A stretch of 27,853 nt of DNA from a virus (IMGVR_UViG_3300035670_001040:1-27853), one strand, 5' to 3'. Shown: positions 1,285-27,685, numbered from the stretch's first letter. Numbers and translations: made by a program. Notes: generated by a model from the sequence alone, not told the origin.

Positions 1285-3633
1285 ATGAAATTCCCATACT
1301 TTTTACAACATTTAGAAGAAGCAACTGCAAAAATCGGTGAAAGTCTCCGGAAAGAGTCTAGAAAAGCAGGTTCAGGGGATCTAAAGGCAAAGGATGCTGC
1401 TAGAAAGCGTGCAGAGCGTGCCCGCCAGATTCCCCGTGAAAGAAAGCCAAAGCAGGAATTAGTCAAGGAAATCATTGCAGTCAAAACCCGTGATGGAAGA
1501 TTGCAACTCATCTTCAAGGATTCTTTCAATCCAGACACACATGAAAAAGTAGGAAAAGATGTGCTTTCCATGGAAGAAGCACAGCAAATTTCCAATGATC
1601 CAAAATTTGAACAAACCCGAGCCTCCAAACTTCTTTTTGGTGATGTGAAAGGCAAGAAGCCTTCAGATAAAAAAGAAGAAAAGAAAACAGAACGCAAAGA
1701 GGGTGGAGAAACCAAAAAAGAAGAGTCTCGGGAAGAAAAGAAAGAAAGCAAGCCAAAAGCAAAACGCCTGTCCAAGGAAGATATTTTCAAGGCCATGTCT
1801 CAAATGGATGGAAACCAACTTGCTCAGATGCCATTGGATGTTCGTCAAGAATACTTCAAGGCCACAAGAAGACCACCACCAAACACCGATTTCGACAACC
1901 TCAGTTACGAAGCATTGACAGTCAAGTTTGCAATCAGTCCTGTATCAAATCTTCCATACAATCAACAAGTATTGAATGCATTGATGTTTTTGGCAAAGAT
2001 CAAGGCTGGTGCATCTGAGCAGGAGATGCAAACATACAATGCACTTGCACCAACTGCCACCGAATTCACCCGGAACGCTTTCAATACTGCAAGAAAGATT
2101 CTTTCACAGATTGGGGACGAGTGCATTCAAAATCTAGTCTCAACAATTGAGACTGGTGGAACTCCGGTCAACTCAGAAGGTGCTGTTGACATGCAATGTG
2201 GAAACTACAAGTTCAAGGTTTCTGCTGGTGGTGAAATGGCTCTTTCGACAACTCAGTTTGATCAGGGAAACAAGTCTTTCAAGGGACTCATTGCTTCTGC
2301 TTTGATGCAGACTTTGAGCAACCCTCAAATGATGCAAGCAGACCCCAAACTTGCAGAAATGATGCAGAGTGCATCACAGGAAACTGCGGGTTTTGCCACA
2401 TCATTGATTCCAGATGAATTGTTGGGAACAATCATGGCCGATGAATCTTTGGTTTCTGAACTGCAGAAGATCAAGTTGAAAAACTCCCAAGGCCAAGATA
2501 TTGGACCAATTTTGGACGCGGAAGGAAATCTAAATCCTTTGGCCTCTCTGCAAAATTACAAAAATACATGGCTTGAAAGAACAAAGGGAATGTTCAGTGG
2601 AAGCAAGTCAAGCAGCAAGTCGCCGCTTCGTGCTGCCGTTGTTTCCACCATTCTCAAAGCAAATCTAAGAGGCGATGGTCTGGTTCCACCAGAGGTAGCC
2701 CCAAATCATTTAGTGACCATCAACGGTGTCTTTCCGCTGACCGATGATTACTTCAACACGATTTCACAACAGGCAGATATTGACATCAAGAAAGCAAAGG
2801 ATGTAATAAATTCTGCAAACATTGGTTCGCTTCGTTCAAGATCCGCCGAGACAATGAAGAAATACAGAACCATTGTTGAGGCCAAGGGAGAAAAGAAATC
2901 CTTGAAAGACATCTTGATTGATGCAAAGACGATCAATCCAATTGAGTTCATTGTCAGGGACATCGTGGACAACAATGACTTCCTGATGAATGCAAGTCTT
3001 CTTCCAGGTTTCTCACCGAAGGACTTGAATTCAGTTGAATACAACTATGTAACGATTGGCAAAAAGACAATAAAGATTCCTGTCATCACAAATGACAGAA
3101 TTGCAAACCAAATGATGCAGGAGTCTGCCTTGTTGGTCAATGATTGCTTGATCGAAGCCTTGACCAACAATTTTGTGCTCAAAGCATTCAGAAACATTGA
3201 GTTGATAACAGATTCAGAGCAGGCTTTGTTTGAGGACAATCCTGCCATGCTTCTTGAGTCATATGAAGATGTGGTTCCTCTCAAAGAAATCTACAAGGCA
3301 ATCATGGAAAAAATTCAAGATGATCCATCAATCCTTGAAGCATTCATTCTTCAACTTGAGGAAGCCGAAAGAGACTACAAGAAAGAATACAAGAATTACC
3401 ACGGCAAGCCAAAGCAAAGAAAAGAAAGAGCAGCCAGAACTGCTGCCCGAGAACTGATGATCAGAAAGGGCAGAGCCAAGCGTGGAGATGGCAAGGACAT
3501 AGACCACAAGAAGCCTCTTCGCAGGGGTGGTTCAAAAGGCATAAATAATCTACGGGTCCGTGATAAATCTTCTAATCGTTCTGACAATGGACACAAAAAA
3601 GGTGAAACACAGAAAAAAGGTAGTTGGGAATGA
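1285..3633 (+). CDS. Large head-associated protein with C-terminal HNH-like domain
   Basis: A 782-aa protein in three parts. The N-terminus MKFPYFLQHLEE resembles a T4 capsid-targeting sequence, with an [LI]-x-E cleavage-like site (LEE, 10-12). A segment of cyanophage type follows (about 60-120), then a Lys/Glu low-complexity stretch (about 122-162). The long middle part I do not recognise. The C-terminus (about 694-782) carries NYHGKPKQRKERA, GDGKDIDHKKPL with His741, GG, NNL near 754-756 and Asn764, the layout of HNH/HNN-type phage nucleases. Its stop overlaps the next start as ATGA. Inference: a structural or head-packaged protein with a nuclease-like tail. Catalytic activity is unproven, since the last metal-ligand position is Asn. 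Confidence 0.6.
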   Translation: MKFPYFLQHLEEATAKIGESLRKESRKAGSGDLKAKDAARKRAERARQIPRERKPKQELVKEIIAVKTRDGRLQLIFKDSFNPDTHEKVGKDVLSMEEAQQISNDPKFEQTRASKLLFGDVKGKKPSDKKEEKKTERKEGGETKKEESREEKKESKPKAKRLSKEDIFKAMSQMDGNQLAQMPLDVRQEYFKATRRPPPNTDFDNLSYEALTVKFAISPVSNLPYNQQVLNALMFLAKIKAGASEQEMQTYNALAPTATEFTRNAFNTARKILSQIGDECIQNLVSTIETGGTPVNSEGAVDMQCGNYKFKVSAGGEMALSTTQFDQGNKSFKGLIASALMQTLSNPQMMQADPKLAEMMQSASQETAGFATSLIPDELLGTIMADESLVSELQKIKLKNSQGQDIGPILDAEGNLNPLASLQNYKNTWLERTKGMFSGSKSSSKSPLRAAVVSTILKANLRGDGLVPPEVAPNHLVTINGVFPLTDDYFNTISQQADIDIKKAKDVINSANIGSLRSRSAETMKKYRTIVEAKGEKKSLKDILIDAKTINPIEFIVRDIVDNNDFLMNASLLPGFSPKDLNSVEYNYVTIGKKTIKIPVITNDRIANQMMQESALLVNDCLIEALTNNFVLKAFRNIELITDSEQALFEDNPAMLLESYEDVVPLKEIYKAIMEKIQDDPSILEAFILQLEEAERDYKKEYKNYHGKPKQRKERAARTAARELMIRKGRAKRGDGKDIDHKKPLRRGGSKGINNLRVRDKSSNRSDNGHKKGETQKKGSWE

Positions 3634-13033: not shown

Positions 13034-13885
13034 ATGATCGTAAAACGAGAAAATAAATTCGTAGTCATGGATTCAGAAGGAAAAAAAGTACTTGGTACAC
13101 ATTCCACAAAAGAACAAGCAGAAAAACAATTGACTGCTATTCACATTTCTCAAAAGAAGAGAAAGTCACTTAAGGAATTCCTTGAAGAAACTTCACAACT
13201 CACTCTTCAATACCACGATCAACTGAATCCAAATCTTTGGGAAAACAATAAACTAAAAGAAGAAGTAAGAAACAAGCTTCTTCAAATAGCCGATGTGTGG
13301 ACAAAGTTTGCAAAGATTCCAGCAGAAGCCATTGAGGATGTGTTGGTCGTTGGAGGAAATGCAAACTTCAACTATACTCCCTATTCTGACATAGACCTCC
13401 ATATTCTTGTAGATAAATCAAAGATTGCAGACTGCCCAGAAATACTGGATGAATACCTAAAAGACAAGAAGCAACTTTGGGCACATTCACACGACATAAA
13501 GATCTACAGCCACGATGTTGAGATCTATGCCCAAGACATCTCCGAGCAAGTTCCAGCCAACCAAGGGTCCTATAGTCTTACACAGAACGAATGGCTAAAT
13601 GAACCAAAACAAGAAGAAATAAATTTAGAAGATCCTGAAATTTCATTGAAAGTCAATGAACTTATTCATAAAATTGAAGGTATGATTTCTTCCAAAGCAA
13701 GTGATGAATCTTTCACAAAATTGAAAGAAAAGTTCCGTACAATGAGATCTGCTGGTCTAAAGAAAGCAGGAGAATTTTCAGTTGAAAATTTGGTATTCAA
13801 GGAACTTCGAAACCGTGGATATTTGGATAAAGTGAATGATTACATTCTCAGCACACAAGATGAAAATCTAAGCCTTAAAAATTAA
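13034..13885 (+). CDS. Nucleotidyltransferase-fold protein with internal head-tag-like segment
   Basis: A 283-aa protein (from ATG 13034). Residues 1-38 form a small module (VKRENKFVVMDSEGKKVLGT...EQAEKQL) known from many phage proteins. Next comes KSLKEFLEE (44-52), like the start tags elsewhere in the window. The catalytic part has VVGGNANFNYTPYSDIDLHI with Gly107-Gly108, Asp119 and Asp121, and a third carboxylate at Asp161 (HDVEIY). This is the pol-beta/MNT nucleotidyltransferase signature. It would transfer NMPs to an unknown RNA, protein or small-molecule acceptor. The C-terminus is helical. Confidence 0.65.
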   Translation: MIVKRENKFVVMDSEGKKVLGTHSTKEQAEKQLTAIHISQKKRKSLKEFLEETSQLTLQYHDQLNPNLWENNKLKEEVRNKLLQIADVWTKFAKIPAEAIEDVLVVGGNANFNYTPYSDIDLHILVDKSKIADCPEILDEYLKDKKQLWAHSHDIKIYSHDVEIYAQDISEQVPANQGSYSLTQNEWLNEPKQEEINLEDPEISLKVNELIHKIEGMISSKASDESFTKLKEKFRTMRSAGLKKAGEFSVENLVFKELRNRGYLDKVNDYILSTQDENLSLKN

Positions 13886-13896: not shown

Positions 13897-14613
13897 ATGA
13901 GCGACTTAAACAAAGAACTAATCGAACAATTACTCCAAAGAATAGATCTTCTTGAAAAAAAACTGGCTAATAGAGATTATGATCAAGACGGTAAAGTAGA
14001 AACTTCCGAAGAAGAATACCTTGGTTCAAGAGATAGGGCGATTAAGAACGCTAAGAAAAAGAAGATTGAAGAGGCATTGGAAAGACTCAGCGGTATTGTT
14101 AATCACACCAATCCAATTCTTCGTTCAGTAACAAAAAAAATTGAAAAATCAGATTTAGTTGAAAAAGTTTTAAATAGATTAGGTGAAAATAATTCAATGA
14201 ATAAAAACTCTTTTAAAGATCAAGGAACCCGAGTTCAACTTTCTGAAAATTTGGTATTTGGTGGATTCCCTCGCACTAAGTTGAATGAAGGTGAGGAATC
14301 AGAGAGCCTTGCTGCACCACCACCATTTGATCCACACAACAAAGTCTTCTATCCAAGTAAGGAGTATGCAGAACTTCATGGTGCATACATTCAAGCACTT
14401 CAGGCTCACAAGGCTGCTCCTTCCGAGAAAACCAAGCAAGCCGCAATTAGAATGGAAGAAATGTTGAAGGCCCATCCGCACCACGCAGAACATAATGAGA
14501 GCATTGCAAATCTTCGCAAAGATCCCGATAGAGTTCCAGAACAACGCTCTGGCCCAAGACCCGGCTTTGAAGATCCCCGACTTCGCATTCAAGGTCGTAG
14601 TTCAATCAACTAA
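13897..14613 (+). CDS. EF-hand-containing phage protein
   Basis: A 238-aa protein with a canonical calcium-binding loop at residues 27-38 (DYDQDGKVETSE: Asp at 1, 3 and 5, Gly at 6, Glu at 12), followed by EEYLGSRDRAIKNAKKKK, a pairing seen in cyanophage proteins. A helical coiled-coil-like N-terminus (ELIEQLLQRIDLLEKKL) precedes it. The C-terminal half is Pro/His-rich and probably disordered. No partner EF-hand is seen, so the loop may be structural or serve dimer-dependent binding. Late motif 5 bases upstream. Function unknown. Confidence 0.6.
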   Translation: MSDLNKELIEQLLQRIDLLEKKLANRDYDQDGKVETSEEEYLGSRDRAIKNAKKKKIEEALERLSGIVNHTNPILRSVTKKIEKSDLVEKVLNRLGENNSMNKNSFKDQGTRVQLSENLVFGGFPRTKLNEGEESESLAAPPPFDPHNKVFYPSKEYAELHGAYIQALQAHKAAPSEKTKQAAIRMEEMLKAHPHHAEHNESIANLRKDPDRVPEQRSGPRPGFEDPRLRIQGRSSIN

Positions 14614-22536: not shown

Positions 22537-22564
22537 AGTATACTCATATACGCAGGTCAGTCAA
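22537..22564 (-). promoter_or_regulatory. Sigma70-type early promoter (TTGACT-N16-TATACT)
   Basis: TTGACT (22564-22559) and TATACT (22542-22537) on the minus strand, 16 bp apart; the -35 overlaps the end of the methyltransferase gene. Confidence 0.75.
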
Positions 22565-23643
22565 GCATTGTTGGCAATAATTCTCTCGCCAATCCATTCC
22601 ATGCAGTTGACTGCCATGCTGTTTCCAAGAGCCCGATAACGATGCCCATCAGGGCATTCAGACTTTCCACGCCAAGGAATTAAAGTATAATCATCGGGGA
22701 ATCCCTGAAGTCTCTCACATTCACGTGGAGTCAATTTCCGAACACGACTTAAATTAGAAGTATTTTTGATAACCATTGTAAAGCCATCAGCTCTTGAATA
22801 ATCGTGACAAGTAGTTTCAAGGCACGGAGCAACTTCATGACTTGGTATATCAACATTTACTATGGCAGCAAATGAAGCATTGTCTCTTGCCAAGGTATGA
22901 CAAGGATCACCGGGCACACGACTCTGCCTGTTGATCGGTGCAGTTATTTGGAAGAGGTCGTATGGGACGGGGATGTAGGTGTCTCCGTCTTCTCTGAGTC
23001 TAGCGCAGCGCCTTCCTGCAAGGCACTTAGCAATATCTTTGGTAGGATCTTCCCCCGCTTTTCTGCGCGGAGTAGAATGCCTTTGCAGGCTTTGGGACTC
23101 AAAAAGAACTTTTGCGGCACTGGTTGGGTTTCCAAGACATCCGACAACGAAGACACGTCGCCGTCGTTGCGGGACGGCAAAGGGATGCCCGTGTGTTCTG
23201 ACCCACTGAGCGTCCAAGACCCGGTAGGCCCACCCATACCCCAAGTCTCCCAACGCCCCGAGGAAGGTACCAAAATCCCTTCCTCCGTTGCTTGACAGGA
23301 CACCGGAGACATTTTCCCAGACGATCCACTTGGGGCGATAACGCCTAGCGATCTCAAGATAGGTGAGCATGAGTCCACCACGGGGGTCAGAGAGTCCTCC
23401 TCTGAATCCTGCCAAAGAGAAGGACTGGCACGGCGTGCCCCCGACGAGGAGGTCAACTTGTTCTTTGATTTCCCATTTTTCATAATTTTTCATGTCTCCA
23501 AAGTTTGGAACAGTCGGGTAGTGGTGGGCTAATACAGCGGAAGTAAAAGATTCAATCTCGCTGAACCCAACAGGAACCCACCCGAATGGATGCCAAGCAA
23601 CCGTTGCGGCTTCAATGCCTGAGCATACAGAGAGATATCGCAT
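22561..23643 (-). CDS. C5-cytosine DNA methyltransferase
   Basis: A 360-aa Dcm-type enzyme that methylates cytosine at C5 in DNA. All key motifs are visible: I LSVCSGIEAA (4-13), IV GGTPCQSFSLAGF with catalytic Cys72, VI WENVSG (109-114), VIII AVPQRRRRVFVVG (156-168), IX/target region, then LTPRECERLQGFPDDY and X YRALGNSMAVN. I start at ATG 23643, exactly 6 bases after TATAAT; an ATG at 23649 adds two residues. Codon use and local GC are higher than in the flanking late genes, suggesting a separate origin. It could shield the phage genome from restriction. Confidence 0.9.
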   Translation of the reverse strand: MRYLSVCSGIEAATVAWHPFGWVPVGFSEIESFTSAVLAHHYPTVPNFGDMKNYEKWEIKEQVDLLVGGTPCQSFSLAGFRGGLSDPRGGLMLTYLEIARRYRPKWIVWENVSGVLSSNGGRDFGTFLGALGDLGYGWAYRVLDAQWVRTHGHPFAVPQRRRRVFVVGCLGNPTSAAKVLFESQSLQRHSTPRRKAGEDPTKDIAKCLAGRRCARLREDGDTYIPVPYDLFQITAPINRQSRVPGDPCHTLARDNASFAAIVNVDIPSHEVAPCLETTCHDYSRADGFTMVIKNTSNLSRVRKLTPRECERLQGFPDDYTLIPWRGKSECPDGHRYRALGNSMAVNCMEWIGERIIANNA

Positions 23644-23649
23644 GGGCAT

Positions 23650-23702: not shown

Positions 23703-24758
23703 ATGATCAAATTTAAGCAATTTCTTGAAGAATCTTTTGACAATACAGTAATAAATTTTGAAAGATATATTTCTTTTCTTTCTGAAGAAAATATTTCACT
23801 AACTCAAGCCCCAACAAGCGTTAATTGGGGAACTGTAAAATCTGGATTTGACCAAGCAAAAGATCCCACAACCAGAGCTCAACTTGCCAAAGAAGGCAAA
23901 AAAAAGCGTGGAAAATTATTAGGCCAAGAAGGAAGCAACCCAAAACTTGCAAAAGAAGCGGAAAGTGTTCCTGAATTCTTGACAAAAGGGCTTTCTCTTT
24001 CTCCTTCAGATGAGTCAGGAAGAATCAACACCTGCTCATGTGCAACCGATGAATGTCGTGCTGCTTGCTTGAACAAGGCTGGTCGTGGAGCCATGAGTTC
24101 CGTACAAACAGGAAGATTGAAGAAAACAGACTTCATGCTTGACAATCCCGGCCATTTCATGGGAATGTTGCATGACGAAATTCAAGCCCACGAAAGATCT
24201 GCTGCAAAGCAAGGAAAGCGTGCTGCCGTGAGATTGAATGTGGTATCAGATATTCCTTATGAACATCTACATCCTGAAGTTTTCCATGAACATCCAAATG
24301 TTCAATTTTATGATTATACAAAAATTGCTCGTAGAGTATTGAACCCAAACGGAACTCCAAAGCAACTTCCCAAAAATTATCATCTGACACTTTCATCGAC
24401 TGGAATCCACAAAGGTTCCAATTGGTCAGACGCAAGACAACATTTGAGTAACGGTGGAGTCGTTGCCATGGTATTTGCCGTTCCCGGTGGACGAGGCAAG
24501 AAGGCTGGAGGAGCCTTACCCACCCATGTAACCGATGCAAAGACCGGAAAGAAATTCCGTGTCATTGACGCAGACATTCACGACCACAGACATCTAGACC
24601 ATGTTTACAACGATGCCCAACCCGGTGAAGGTTTGATTGCTGGTTTGAGAATCAAGGGTGGAAAGAAAATGCTTGCCAAGGCAGGGGATTTTGCAGTAAA
24701 GATTCCTGAAGGGCAAACTGAAGTAGTTGTTCCAGACCACTCAAAGGAAGAAAAGTGA
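23703..24758 (+). CDS. GP88-family protein with head-targeting-like N-terminus
   Basis: A 351-aa protein. The N-terminus MIKFKQFLEE looks like a capsid-targeting tag with an L-E-E site. The body resembles the phage GP88 family: a Cys cluster NTCSCATDECRAAC (Cys111, 113, 118, 122), GRGAMSSVQTGRLKKTDFML, VRLNVVSDIPYEHLHP, VQFYDYTKIARR, NYHLTLSS, GGVVAMVFAVPGG, then VIDADIHDHRHLD and GLIAGLRIKGGKK. The family's activity is unknown to me. The Cys cluster could hold a metal or Fe-S centre. The stop overlaps the next start as GTGA. Confidence 0.6.
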   Translation: MIKFKQFLEESFDNTVINFERYISFLSEENISLTQAPTSVNWGTVKSGFDQAKDPTTRAQLAKEGKKKRGKLLGQEGSNPKLAKEAESVPEFLTKGLSLSPSDESGRINTCSCATDECRAACLNKAGRGAMSSVQTGRLKKTDFMLDNPGHFMGMLHDEIQAHERSAAKQGKRAAVRLNVVSDIPYEHLHPEVFHEHPNVQFYDYTKIARRVLNPNGTPKQLPKNYHLTLSSTGIHKGSNWSDARQHLSNGGVVAMVFAVPGGRGKKAGGALPTHVTDAKTGKKFRVIDADIHDHRHLDHVYNDAQPGEGLIAGLRIKGGKKMLAKAGDFAVKIPEGQTEVVVPDHSKEEK

Positions 24759-24904
24759 AAAAATTTAAAGAATTTCTAGAAAATTATGATGTCTACCTAG
24801 ACAAGCCAATGGGATTCAAGAGCCCGGAAGACACAGAGCCTGCAGACGAAGAAACTGACGAGTCCGTGGCCCAAGAAGAAAACGCGAACGAGGTAAGAAA
24901 GTGA
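24755..24904 (+). CDS. Short acidic tagged peptide
   Basis: A 49-aa peptide starting (GTG) MKKFKEFLENYDVYLDK and ending in an acidic tail (PADEETDESVAQEENANEVRK, broken as PADEETDESV and AQEENANEVRK). It is essentially a tag plus a disordered tail. Both ends overlap neighbours by GTGA. It may be a decayed cargo gene, or a real internal head peptide like those of T4. Confidence 0.55.
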   Translation: MKKFKEFLENYDVYLDKPMGFKSPEDTEPADEETDESVAQEENANEVRK

Positions 24905-24930
24905 AAAGTTTTAAAAGTTTTTTGGTTGAA
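24890..24930 (+). repeat. Direct repeat copy 1 over a tag-coding junction
   Basis: 41 bases from the last codons of the upstream gene (EVRK stop) through the first ten codons of the next (MKSFKSFLVE). It differs at two positions from copy 2 at 25573-25613. Confidence 0.85.
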
Positions 24931-25587
24931 TTTCCAATGGTGATGGATTTTTCAGAACCAGAAGACCAAAATCCAGATTACAGAAGGTCATTTCTCACAA
25001 AACCAATTGATCAACTTGTTACAACAGAGGGTGGTGTATTCAGGAGAATGAAACCCAAGAAAATTGGAACGCATGAAGTTGATGGCAAAAAATATACATT
25101 TTATCACCACCAACAAACGAGCAGAGATCCTTTCAGCGGGCCAACCACCACCCATCATATGTTTACGGTAGATGACAAAAAAACTGTAATAGGAGTCGGA
25201 AGAGGAAACACAATAGGAAAAACCGATAAAACTCATGCCATAGGAATGGACATGGCAGCAATTCATCCAGAACACAGAGGAAGAAAACTTTACGCCTCAA
25301 TGTTGGCAAATTTTGTGAATAAAACAGGTCATACATTATTTTCAGATGAGACACAGACGCCAGGTTCAAAGAAGACTTGGGAACACCTTGCTGACAATTC
25401 AGAGTCACTTGGACTAGATTTCAGAGCCCACCCAAGAATGAATGGAAAAATTCTGGTAGGCAAGACAATGACACAATCCCACCCCGGAATGTGGCAAGGA
25501 CAACCAGACATGAATTCCAAAGACATAATTTTATCAATAAGAAGAAAACAAACCGAACAACCAAACACTGATGAGGTAAGGAAATGA
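24901..25587 (+). CDS. GNAT-like acetyltransferase with head-targeting-like N-terminus
   Basis: A 228-aa protein from a GTG. Residues 1-10 are MKSFKSFLVE, a tag with an L-V-E site, identical to that of the next gene. The C-terminal half has AAIHPEHRGRKLYASMLANF (119-138), the acetyl-CoA-binding loop pattern of GNAT enzymes, and then HTLFSDETQTPGSKKTWEHL. The N-terminal half is beta-rich (YTFYHHQQTS, HHMFTV, KTVIGVGRG). The acceptor is unknown. Stop/start overlap ATGA with the next gene. Confidence 0.6.
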   Translation: MKSFKSFLVEFPMVMDFSEPEDQNPDYRRSFLTKPIDQLVTTEGGVFRRMKPKKIGTHEVDGKKYTFYHHQQTSRDPFSGPTTTHHMFTVDDKKTVIGVGRGNTIGKTDKTHAIGMDMAAIHPEHRGRKLYASMLANFVNKTGHTLFSDETQTPGSKKTWEHLADNSESLGLDFRAHPRMNGKILVGKTMTQSHPGMWQGQPDMNSKDIILSIRRKQTEQPNTDEVRK

Positions 25588-25613
25588 AAAGTTTTAAAAG
25601 TTTTTTGGTTGAA
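25573..25613 (+). repeat. Direct repeat copy 2 over a tag-coding junction
   Basis: The second 41-base copy, again covering EVRK-stop of one gene and MKSFKSFLVE of the next. Two base differences from copy 1, one of which changes the start from GTG to ATG. Confidence 0.85.
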
Positions 25614-26129
25614 GATGCACAAGAGTTCACCTCTGCAGCAACCAGCATCAACAAGACAAAACTCCCAGAAGCATATTCAACCATTCACAAGAAAATTGGT
25701 TGGCAGAAGGGTACTACCCACATCGACATCGGCGGTGGAAAGTTTGATAATGCCAAAGAATTTTTGGGAAATTTAGGAGTCGAAGCCCATGTCTATGACC
25801 CTTACAACCGAACCCCAGAACACAATCAGGAAGTCATGGAACGAGCAGGCGAAGGCAAGGCAGACACGGCTTCTCTATTCAATGTTCTGAATGTCATAAA
25901 AGAACCTGAGTACCGAGAGAATGCCCTCAGAACGGCTCACAAAGCCCTGAAGCCCGGTGGAAGAGTATTCATTTCAATATACGAGGGAGACAAGACAGGA
26001 GTGGGCAAGAAAACAAAGGCAGACTCATGGCAGAACAACATGCCCACAGCAGCCCACCTTCCTGAAGTACAGAAAATATTTCCAAATGCCAAAATTCAGC
26101 ATGGAATCATACACGGAACAAAAGAATGA
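25584..26129 (+). CDS. Class I SAM-dependent methyltransferase with head-targeting-like N-terminus
   Basis: A 181-aa protein starting MKSFKSFLVE. The fold is shown by THIDIGGGKFDNA (45-57, AdoMet-binding loop), AHVYDPYNR (acidic end of strand 2), ASLFNVLNVIKEPE (strand 4) and ALKPGGRVFISIYEGD (strand 5). It ends soon after strand 5-6, near the minimum for the fold. The VYDPYNRTPEHNQ block is typical of a phage group; the substrate is unknown. ATGA overlaps link it to both neighbours. Confidence 0.65.
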   Translation: MKSFKSFLVEDAQEFTSAATSINKTKLPEAYSTIHKKIGWQKGTTHIDIGGGKFDNAKEFLGNLGVEAHVYDPYNRTPEHNQEVMERAGEGKADTASLFNVLNVIKEPEYRENALRTAHKALKPGGRVFISIYEGDKTGVGKKTKADSWQNNMPTAAHLPEVQKIFPNAKIQHGIIHGTKE

Positions 26130-26575
26130 AAAGATTTAAAACTTATCTTTCGGAAATCTTCAATAATAATAAAACAGAATCAGAGGATCATCCCGATCTA
26201 TTAAAGGATCAAAATGAAGATGACACCTTAACTGATAAAAATAAATTTGTGTATTCGTATATTCCAAAAGATGAAGAAGGAAACTTGCTTAAAAATCGTG
26301 CAATAAGAACTTGGATGCTTAAAACTAAAGAGGGGGATTGGGAAACTTCCTTTACGGTGGGGGGAACAAATGTAACAAAAGAAGAAAAAGAATTTCCTGC
26401 CGATGTAACAGAAAGAGTTTTTGGTCATTTAAAACATTTTGTTGATACTGTAAAGAAAAATTTAGGAAACCCACCAACTATTAAATACGAAACACGGAAT
26501 AAGAAAAAACATAGAATATATCAAGCAGTAGCAAAAAGATTAGGAACAAAAGCAACAAACATGGAAATTTTATAA
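26126..26575 (+). CDS. Tagged phage protein, unknown
   Basis: A 149-aa protein with the tag MKRFKTYLSE (L-S-E site), an acidic linker (ESEDHPDLLKDQNEDD), and a mixed-fold body (AIRTWMLKTKEGDWETSFTV). The C-terminal KYETRNKKKHRIYQAVAKRLG resembles the last helix of GNAT-like phage proteins. Function unknown. Last of the four overlapping genes after the GP88-like gene. Confidence 0.55.
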   Translation: MKRFKTYLSEIFNNNKTESEDHPDLLKDQNEDDTLTDKNKFVYSYIPKDEEGNLLKNRAIRTWMLKTKEGDWETSFTVGGTNVTKEEKEFPADVTERVFGHLKHFVDTVKKNLGNPPTIKYETRNKKKHRIYQAVAKRLGTKATNMEIL

Positions 26576-26585
26576 AGTAAAATAA

Positions 26586-26888
26586 ATGACAAAATTTCTC
26601 CCCTACATCTTCGCAGCAATACTATTCTTCGCCCCAAGACCAAGCCTAGGTCAAACTTTCATAGTCCCCATAGACGATATTCTCATGGAGATTCCCTACT
26701 TCACCAATGCGCCTGAATACAACTTCAACAACGGAATGCAAGGCAATCTACCAGTAGGAAACTCTACCAAGCAACCAAGAAACAAAGTATCAGAGCAGGA
26801 GATACTAGACCTAGCATGGATGTTATATCCAAATGCAGAGAATATCAGAGTCTGGAACAAGAAATTAATAATAAAATTTAAGGACTAA
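26586..26888 (+). CDS. Small exported protein with signal peptide
   Basis: A 100-aa protein with a clear signal peptide: MTKFLPYIFAAILFFAPRPS then LGQ, with cleavage likely near residue 22. The mature part includes IVPIDDILMEIPYF and EQEILDLAWMLYPNAENIRV. It is probably exported to the periplasm or membrane. A TATAAA-like AT-rich stretch lies upstream but no good late motif is seen. Function unknown. Confidence 0.6.
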   Translation: MTKFLPYIFAAILFFAPRPSLGQTFIVPIDDILMEIPYFTNAPEYNFNNGMQGNLPVGNSTKQPRNKVSEQEILDLAWMLYPNAENIRVWNKKLIIKFKD

Positions 26889-26896: not shown

Positions 26897-27685
26897 ATGC
26901 ACTACCTAGCAAACTACTACAAGAATTTATCCGAGCAACTTCAAGAAAAAGTAAATTTTCTTGAGGCTCAATTAAAAGAGGGTCGATTTGTAATCGATCC
27001 CGCAACTGGAAAAGGGAAAATTATTCCTGATCCTAACATGAGATTGGGAAGAAAGCCAGCAAGACCCGGAATCCCAATGTTCCCGGAAAGAAAGCCACTA
27101 ATTGGAAAAGTTCCCATGTCGATAGATCCTGATTTATTAAGGCCCATACCAAAGCGGTCCAATGATGAACTTAATGTCATGCCAGAACCAGACAGAGATG
27201 AAATCAACATCACGCCAGAATTTGGACAAAGAGGGCCAATAAGACCCGAAAACAAAATTTTGAAGACTACGACTGCTCCAAGAGAAAAGATAGATTTTTT
27301 GGATAGAGTTTCCGAAATGCCAAGCAGCGGAACAATTCCTAGTAATTTGAAGCCCATATCACCCGGTAGTAAAATTTATACACCTTCAGAACTAGACTTA
27401 GAGCGACTACCTTATGATGGATCTGGAAGACCCGGTAGACTAAAAGATTTGTCAAGGCCAACACCAGACAGAACCATGAGCCAGTCAGAGGTAGATGACG
27501 AAGGAAAGCCAACCGGACTGGTAAGAGTGACACACCAAAAACCAAAAATTAAGAAATTTGGTGATTCTGGACCAAAGATTCCTCCTGCTCCAATAAAACC
27601 TCAAGGATCACAAATTAAAAATAATGCAACAAATATAGATTATGCAAACTTTAAACCAGAACTTCGGCAGAATTACCGGGGGTAA
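26897..27685 (+). CDS. Proline-rich T4-like phage protein
   Basis: A 262-aa protein. Its first 35 residues form a helix (MHYLANYYKNLSEQLQEKVN) resembling a conserved N-terminus in T4-like aquatic phages. The rest is Pro/Arg/Lys-rich and probably disordered, with repeated short patterns (RKPARPGIPMFPERKP, PGSKIYTP, RPGRLKDLSRPTPDRT). No domain is recognised. It ends the coding part of the window and is followed by a hairpin-rich stretch. Confidence 0.55.
   Translation: MHYLANYYKNLSEQLQEKVNFLEAQLKEGRFVIDPATGKGKIIPDPNMRLGRKPARPGIPMFPERKPLIGKVPMSIDPDLLRPIPKRSNDELNVMPEPDRDEINITPEFGQRGPIRPENKILKTTTAPREKIDFLDRVSEMPSSGTIPSNLKPISPGSKIYTPSELDLERLPYDGSGRPGRLKDLSRPTPDRTMSQSEVDDEGKPTGLVRVTHQKPKIKKFGDSGPKIPPAPIKPQGSQIKNNATNIDYANFKPELRQNYRG

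Follow-up and report, generated by a model that had tools for sequence, protein, structure and literature searches.

The 27,853-nt (27.8-kb) stretch of DNA analysed here, referred to as the window, is the entire IMG/VR record IMGVR_UViG_3300035670_001040 of an uncultured T4-like virus and is evidently a genome fragment. On its plus strand, positions 23703-26575 hold five overlapping genes (genes 1 to 5) whose products begin with the common sequence M-[KI]-x-F-K-x-[FY]-L-x-[EN], in the following called the tag. All five consecutive genes were found with the N-termini given in the initial annotation, and their coordinates are listed in Table 1 together with those of further features. At every junction of the array the start codon overlaps the preceding stop codon by four bases (GTGA, GTGA, ATGA and ATGA) and the genes are therefore regarded as one translationally coupled operon.

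Table 1. Coordinates of tagged genes, tag sites and repeats in the window.
Feature	Position	Strand	Basis
Gene 1, GP88-family protein, 351 amino acids (aa), ATG start, tag MIKFKQFLEE	23703..24758	+	PF17338, E 1e-35
Tag of gene 1, ATG ATC AAA TTT AAG CAA TTT CTT GAA GAA	23703..23732	+	sequence
Second tag-like site in gene 1, FERYISFLSE	23757..23786	+	sequence; counterpart in G004, G011 and G012
Gene 2, 49-aa open reading frame (ORF), GTG start, tag MKKFKEFLEN	24755..24904	+	~90% identity in relatives
Gene 3, GNAT-like, 228 aa, GTG start, tag MKSFKSFLVE	24901..25587	+	Pfam Acetyltransf_1, E 0.008
Gene 4, class I methyltransferase, 181 aa, ATG start, tag MKSFKSFLVE	25584..26129	+	PF13489 Methyltransf_23, E 9e-12
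Gene 5, 149-aa protein, no assigned family, ATG start, tag MKRFKTYLSE	26126..26575	+	sequence, Pfam
41-bp direct repeat, copy 1 (stop/start junction and tag), gene 3 start	24890..24930	+	39/41 identical to copy 2
41-bp direct repeat, copy 2, gene 4 start	25573..25613	+	39/41 identical to copy 1
782-aa protein, looser N-terminal tag MKFPYFLQHLEEA	1285..3633	+	homologue comparison
Tag-like RKSLKEFLEE, residues 43-52 of the nucleotidyltransferase gene (13034-13885)	13160..13189	+	behind extra N-terminal domain

The strict tag motif was counted in the window, where it occurs five times, and in 300 first-order Markov sequences of matched composition, which did not contain it at all. A looser form of the motif was scored in five related contigs, where it matched 17 of the 544 gene starts called and none of 1595 internal methionines. 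Within the window, Phe4, Phe/Tyr7 and Leu8 are present in all five tags, whereas Glu10 and the predicted cleavage site [LI]-x-E are present in four of them. Among 23 tags drawn from four contigs, all have F4 and L/I8, E10 is found in 21 and F/Y at position 7 in 19; conservation is highest at M1, F4, E10, L/I8 and K2, with K5 and F/Y/H at position 7 coming next. Leu8 is encoded by three different codons (CTT, CTA, TTG, TTG and CTT for genes 1 to 5) and it is therefore the peptide which is conserved and not the DNA, i.e., selection acts on the protein. The tags of genes 3 and 4 are the exception to this codon divergence, since only the start codon distinguishes their DNA. The pattern proposed in the initial annotation for all five genes thus exceeds chance and holds except for the [LI]-x-E of gene 2.

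In phage T4, the internal protein (IP) genes ipII and ipIII begin with MKTYQEFIAEA and ipI begins with MKTFKEF. Genetic analysis of the capsid-targeting sequence (CTS) of T4 IPIII showed that ten residues are enough for packaging, that residues 4 and 7 are the main determinants of targeting and that residues 8 and 10 determine processing (PMC9026906 sec. 2.6). These residues coincide with the conserved positions of the tag, namely 4, 8 and 10 and, less strictly, 7 (F/Y/H).

Behind the tags, the five genes encode different Pfam families or none, so that one tag is carried by unrelated mature proteins. GP88 (gene 1) is a family without known function; its structural model is good (predicted local distance difference test, pLDDT, of 82), no fold match was obtained in PDB (best E 0.19) and the protein was not called an enzyme. 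The copy of gene 2 in a related contig (G004) likewise reads LEN. For gene 3, the GNAT match scores 16.8 bits where Pfam requires 20.7 bits; nearly all top Foldseek matches of its low-confidence single-sequence model (pLDDT 40) were acetyltransferases, and the gene probably encodes a GNAT acetyltransferase, for which the search gave no viral relative. Gene 4 has tagged orthologues in G004, G011 and G013; for gene 5 neither a Pfam family nor a viral relative was found. The initial annotation had called the array an operon of enzymes, which is correct concerning the coupled operon and the methyltransferase, and overstated for the other products, which are not secure enzymes.

Related contigs and turnover of tagged genes

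Relatives were retrieved using two window genes and include contigs of 37 kb (G004), 88 kb (G011), 108 kb (G012) and 146 kb (G013). Both G012 and G013 encode a gp21-type (S77) protease with the conserved LNHP and LGVS motifs, adjoining gp22/gp23; portal, S77 protease, a scaffold-like gene and gp23 stand in T4 order, and gp23 of G013 contains an LIE-A site. These two protease-bearing relatives also carry tagged GP88 or tag arrays. The close relative G011 holds homologues of genes of Sinorhizobium phage phiM12 annotated as gp43, gp41, gp44, gp45, gp62, regA, uvsX, gp47 and gp61, and no T4 core gene is present in the window itself. The clade is considered T4-like because T4 replication genes are common to G011 and phiM12 and the head genes of G012 and G013 are in T4 order. 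Among cultured phages, window gene 5771 pointed to phiM12 as sole kin; phiM12 has gp21, gp22 and gp23, and tagged ORFs were sought in its genome and none were found beyond chance matches. The tag array is therefore not universal in T4-like phages. Many genes of G011 (L116-L120), e.g., the nucleotidyltransferase gene, are seemingly split by frameshifts, which suggests assembly indel errors.

The tag arrays of related contigs sit on partly different genes. In G004, tags are found on GP88, the 49-aa ORF, the methyltransferase, an ADP-ribosyltransferase (PF03496, 3e-14) and proteins of 153 aa and 721 aa; for the tagged ADP-ribosyltransferase, phage records and PDB sequences yielded no relative. 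The MKSFLQ[YH][IL]xE-type tags of G013 belong to another set of genes, in which the methyltransferase and the nucleotidyltransferase are kept, and the cargo behind tags in relatives also includes HEAT-like proteins. Of 80 viral GP88 relatives that were examined, 4 carry the tag, namely L021 and three of the four nearest. Most GP88 relatives begin at the domain itself and 76 are without tag, and the tag of GP88 is therefore seen as an added module. DUF6321 or DUF6321-like proteins are tagged in several phages as well (G013 129762-130067, L183 and L228).

The GNAT-like gene 3 is flanked by the two copies of the 41-bp repeat. In G004, which has no GNAT gene, a single junction leads from the 49-aa ORF directly into the methyltransferase gene. 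In the simplest reading, this arrangement suggests that gene 3 is a cargo gene inserted through recombination at the tag junction.

IMG/VR was scanned with a degenerate DNA pattern for MKxFKxFLxE and a permuted pattern was used as control. At least 120 stretches matched the tag pattern; in nearly all of them the match stands at the beginning of an ORF, and the encoded proteins are many and unrelated. Among the matches listed, 30 have another tagged ORF in the fetched DNA. The control pattern gave 45 stretches, none with another tag; its matches, too, fell in T4-like phages.

Tagged proteins in published virion proteomes

N-termini were extracted for all 219 ORFs of S-CREM2 and all 218 ORFs of S-SZBM1, and S-SCSM1 was scanned. 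Virion proteins detected by mass spectrometry (MS) were taken from PMC10665884 (Table 3), from PMC9146016 (Table 1) and from the ‘virion protein’ labels in the S-SCSM1 record; ORF and virion totals for S-SCSM1 are approximate, based on the paper and the record. The regular expression was fixed before any proteome was read and GTG starts were allowed (GTG-started gp14 was counted). Six of nine tagged ORFs were detected in virions (p = 0.0023 against all ORFs and p = 2.8e-5 against non-structural ORFs), in a test limited by few ORFs, a low-abundance bias and the lack of N-terminal peptides. With the expression widened after seeing S-CREM2, seven of eleven were detected (p = 0.0014 and 1.0e-5).

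The tagged and virion-detected proteins comprise an S-adenosylmethionine (SAM) hydrolase, a kinase, two cytidylyltransferases, an NMNAT and small unknown proteins. For S-CREM2 these are gp6 (MKDFDSFLEE, the SAM hydrolase), gp13, gp14 (VKRFDAFLTE, the kinase), gp136 and gp154 (MKNFSSFLTE); the Cas9-like gp12, also found in virions, has the tag-like LRFASFMAEA slightly inside its start. S-SZBM1_140 (MRFRQFIIE) and the S-SCSM1 NMNAT (MKSFLQFLKE) were detected as well. The kinase of S-CRM01 begins with MISFDQFLSE and is cited as a virion protein in PMC10665884. The virion enzymes of these four phages resemble the window proteins in combining tagged N-termini with non-structural functions, but they represent other cargo sets at other loci. 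The accessible parts of the cyanophage papers report the virion enzymes and do not mention a tag. PA5oct gp282, a virion protein and homologue of a tagged family, was rejected as support due to its degenerate start (MKSFRDYYDAS).

Looser tags and neighbouring features

Looser tags with an [LI]-x-E site had also been assigned to the genes starting at 1285, 3630, 4801 and 13034, which holds for part of them. Homologues of gene 1285 (61-97% identity) retain L-x-E-A at an otherwise variable N-terminus, and LITE is retained in those homologues of gene 3630 which have a readable N-terminus. Gene 4801 is too highly conserved overall for its tag to be judged. The tag-like site of the nucleotidyltransferase gene 13034 is internal; it follows an extra domain of ~42 residues (13034-13160, phrog_3684-like), which is absent in G013 and in cyanophages. 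The orthologue in G013 starts directly with MKSFRNILREA. In Caulobacter phage Cr30, the orthologue gp180 (L309 3505-4212) starts with MRKFSQLLED and has Asp at position 10; in T4, Asp at this CTS position blocks trimming, not targeting (PMC9026906).

A second recurrent N-terminal motif, MHYL[AT]xYYKNLxEQLQE, is found beside the tag array on otherwise different proteins (window 26897-27685; G004 35382 and 36015; matches in L134, L195 and L220) and may represent a further type of targeting peptide. A third such motif, [IL]-L-[VI]-E-G-[MI]-x-YGGFPR / LSENLVFGGFPR, occurs in several proteins, often near the N-terminus (window 13897-14613; G004 29764 and 32558; G011 81278). Directly after the tagged operon, positions 26586-26888 encode a protein of 100 aa which is conserved (>90% identity in two relatives) and whose start resembles a signal peptide. 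A DNA methyltransferase gene lies divergent from the operon at 22561-23649 on the minus strand.

Interpretation of the shared N-terminus

We hold with considerable confidence that the shared N-terminus is a CTS of the T4 type and that the array is a set of cassettes whose unrelated tagged cargo would be loaded into the head, cut and injected. The T4 reading, already proposed in the initial annotation, is supported by the match to the T4 tag, the S77 protease of relatives, the MS data of cyanophage virions and the tagged ADP-ribosyltransferase. It is very likely that the tag functions as CTS and that the tagged proteins are head cargo forming an expanded modular set. By analogy with the IPs and Alt of T4, the tagged proteins may be injected and act on the host. 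For the proteins of this window, we infer packaging, cleavage, injection and action on the host.

While the head is being assembled, the tagged protein would be docked into the scaffold core by Phe4 and the aromatic residue 7, and a gp21-type prohead protease would cut after [LI]-x-E (residues 8-10). The mature protein would remain amid the packaged DNA and enter the host with the genome. The methyltransferase, GNAT-like, GP88 and nucleotidyltransferase genes, and in relatives those of the ADP-ribosyltransferase and the HEAT-like proteins, are unrelated cargo genes which each carry a tag of their own. The translationally coupled cassettes differ from one related phage to the next, an exchange which probably takes place through recombination at the repeat that spans junction and tag.

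Several observations weigh against this interpretation. An S77 protease was searched for in the window and was not found, and no capsid gene was seen there. The second tag, on the 49-aa ORF, ends in L-E-N and lacks [LI]-x-E, and the only secure enzyme among the array products is the methyltransferase. Among long contigs, gp23 or S77 accompanied 4 of 18 hits of the tag pattern and 5 of 15 hits of the control pattern, showing no enrichment in these fragmentary records. Four tagged proteins (S-SZBM1_191, S-SZBM1_192, S-SCSM1 gp030 and S-CREM2 gp175) were not detected in virions, while gp156 of S-CREM2, the orthologue of the window nucleotidyltransferase 13034, was detected without a clear tag, as were many structural proteins. 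The MS tables carry no mature N-termini, and tag cleavage is thus predicted. The S-CREM2 authors allow for co-purification of such virion proteins and could not separate the two cases (PMC10665884).

The short, N-terminal motif could also be a docking peptide for another phage complex (tail, baseplate or a phage-organised host membrane site) with a role in assembly or replication instead of head packaging, and MS of whole virions cannot separate head from tail. We consider this unlikely, since the tag matches the T4 CTS at genetically defined positions, the [LI]-x-E of the head protease is conserved and the cargo consists of soluble enzymes, as in T4 heads. A slightly smaller probability is given to the tagged proteins being parts of the prohead core (scaffold), which serve assembly only and are degraded or lost at maturation. 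The T4 core proteins gp67, gp68 and gp22 are likewise cut by the head protease, and some small tagged ORFs (49 aa here; S-SZBM1_191/192) are no known enzymes and were not detected; however, the tag is also present on enzymes without a role in assembly (SAM hydrolase, kinase, NMNAT and ADP-ribosyltransferase), several of which persist in virions. Least probable, and very improbable in our view, is that gene starts, with their ribosome-binding and early coding sequence, were recently duplicated or recombined and that the common N-terminus arose as a by-product, with no function at the protein level. The near-identical 41-bp repeat at two of the five starts speaks for such an origin, but F4, L/I8 and E10 stay constant in the other tags, which otherwise differ between phages and in their synonymous positions, and the motif recurs on unrelated genes in many contigs.

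A CTS with head cargo, as favoured here, has its closest counterpart in IPI, IPII and IPIII of T4 and gp21. Both systems have a ten-residue N-terminal tag with aromatic residues at positions 4 and 7, a hydrophobic residue at 8 and Glu10, and in both a conserved tag is combined with unrelated mature parts and variable gene content (PMC3012670). The T4 IPs are small basic proteins, whereas the window cargo is mostly larger, includes enzymes and is encoded in one coupled operon; the tag-bearing repeats and the second tag-like site in GP88 are further differences. Alt of T4 is a head-packaged ADP-ribosyltransferase co-injected with the DNA, to whose enzyme class the PF03496 protein within the tag array of G004 belongs, but Alt starts with the divergent propeptide MELITELFDE and the window itself has no ADP-ribosyltransferase. 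The ejection proteins of the giant phages SPN3US and phiKZ are also head proteins whose propeptides are cut by a prohead protease before ejection (PMC5694885); these propeptides are mostly far longer than 10-20 residues. The general suggestion that the CTS allows T4-like phages to package varied proteins has been made before (PMC9026906), and a literature search of incomplete coverage gave no paper linking the CTS to cyanophages. What is new compared with T4, from which the mechanism is known, is the large cargo of enzymes, the arrangement as coupled cassettes and the repeat at the tag junction.

Beyond this locus, we lean slightly towards the view that one interchangeable CTS loads a large and fast-changing arsenal of host-modifying enzymes into the head in environmental T4-like phages, that recruits join it by recombination at the junction repeat and that the tag by itself predicts, from sequence, which effectors a phage injects. 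The proteins injected at time zero are mostly unknown outside a few model phages and, if the tag is a packaging signal, such effectors could be listed from genomes alone. The tag offers an explanation for the presence of SAM hydrolase, Cas9-like protein, kinase and NMNAT in cyanophage virions, and the many tagged proteins without known function would be candidates for counter-defence or host take-over.
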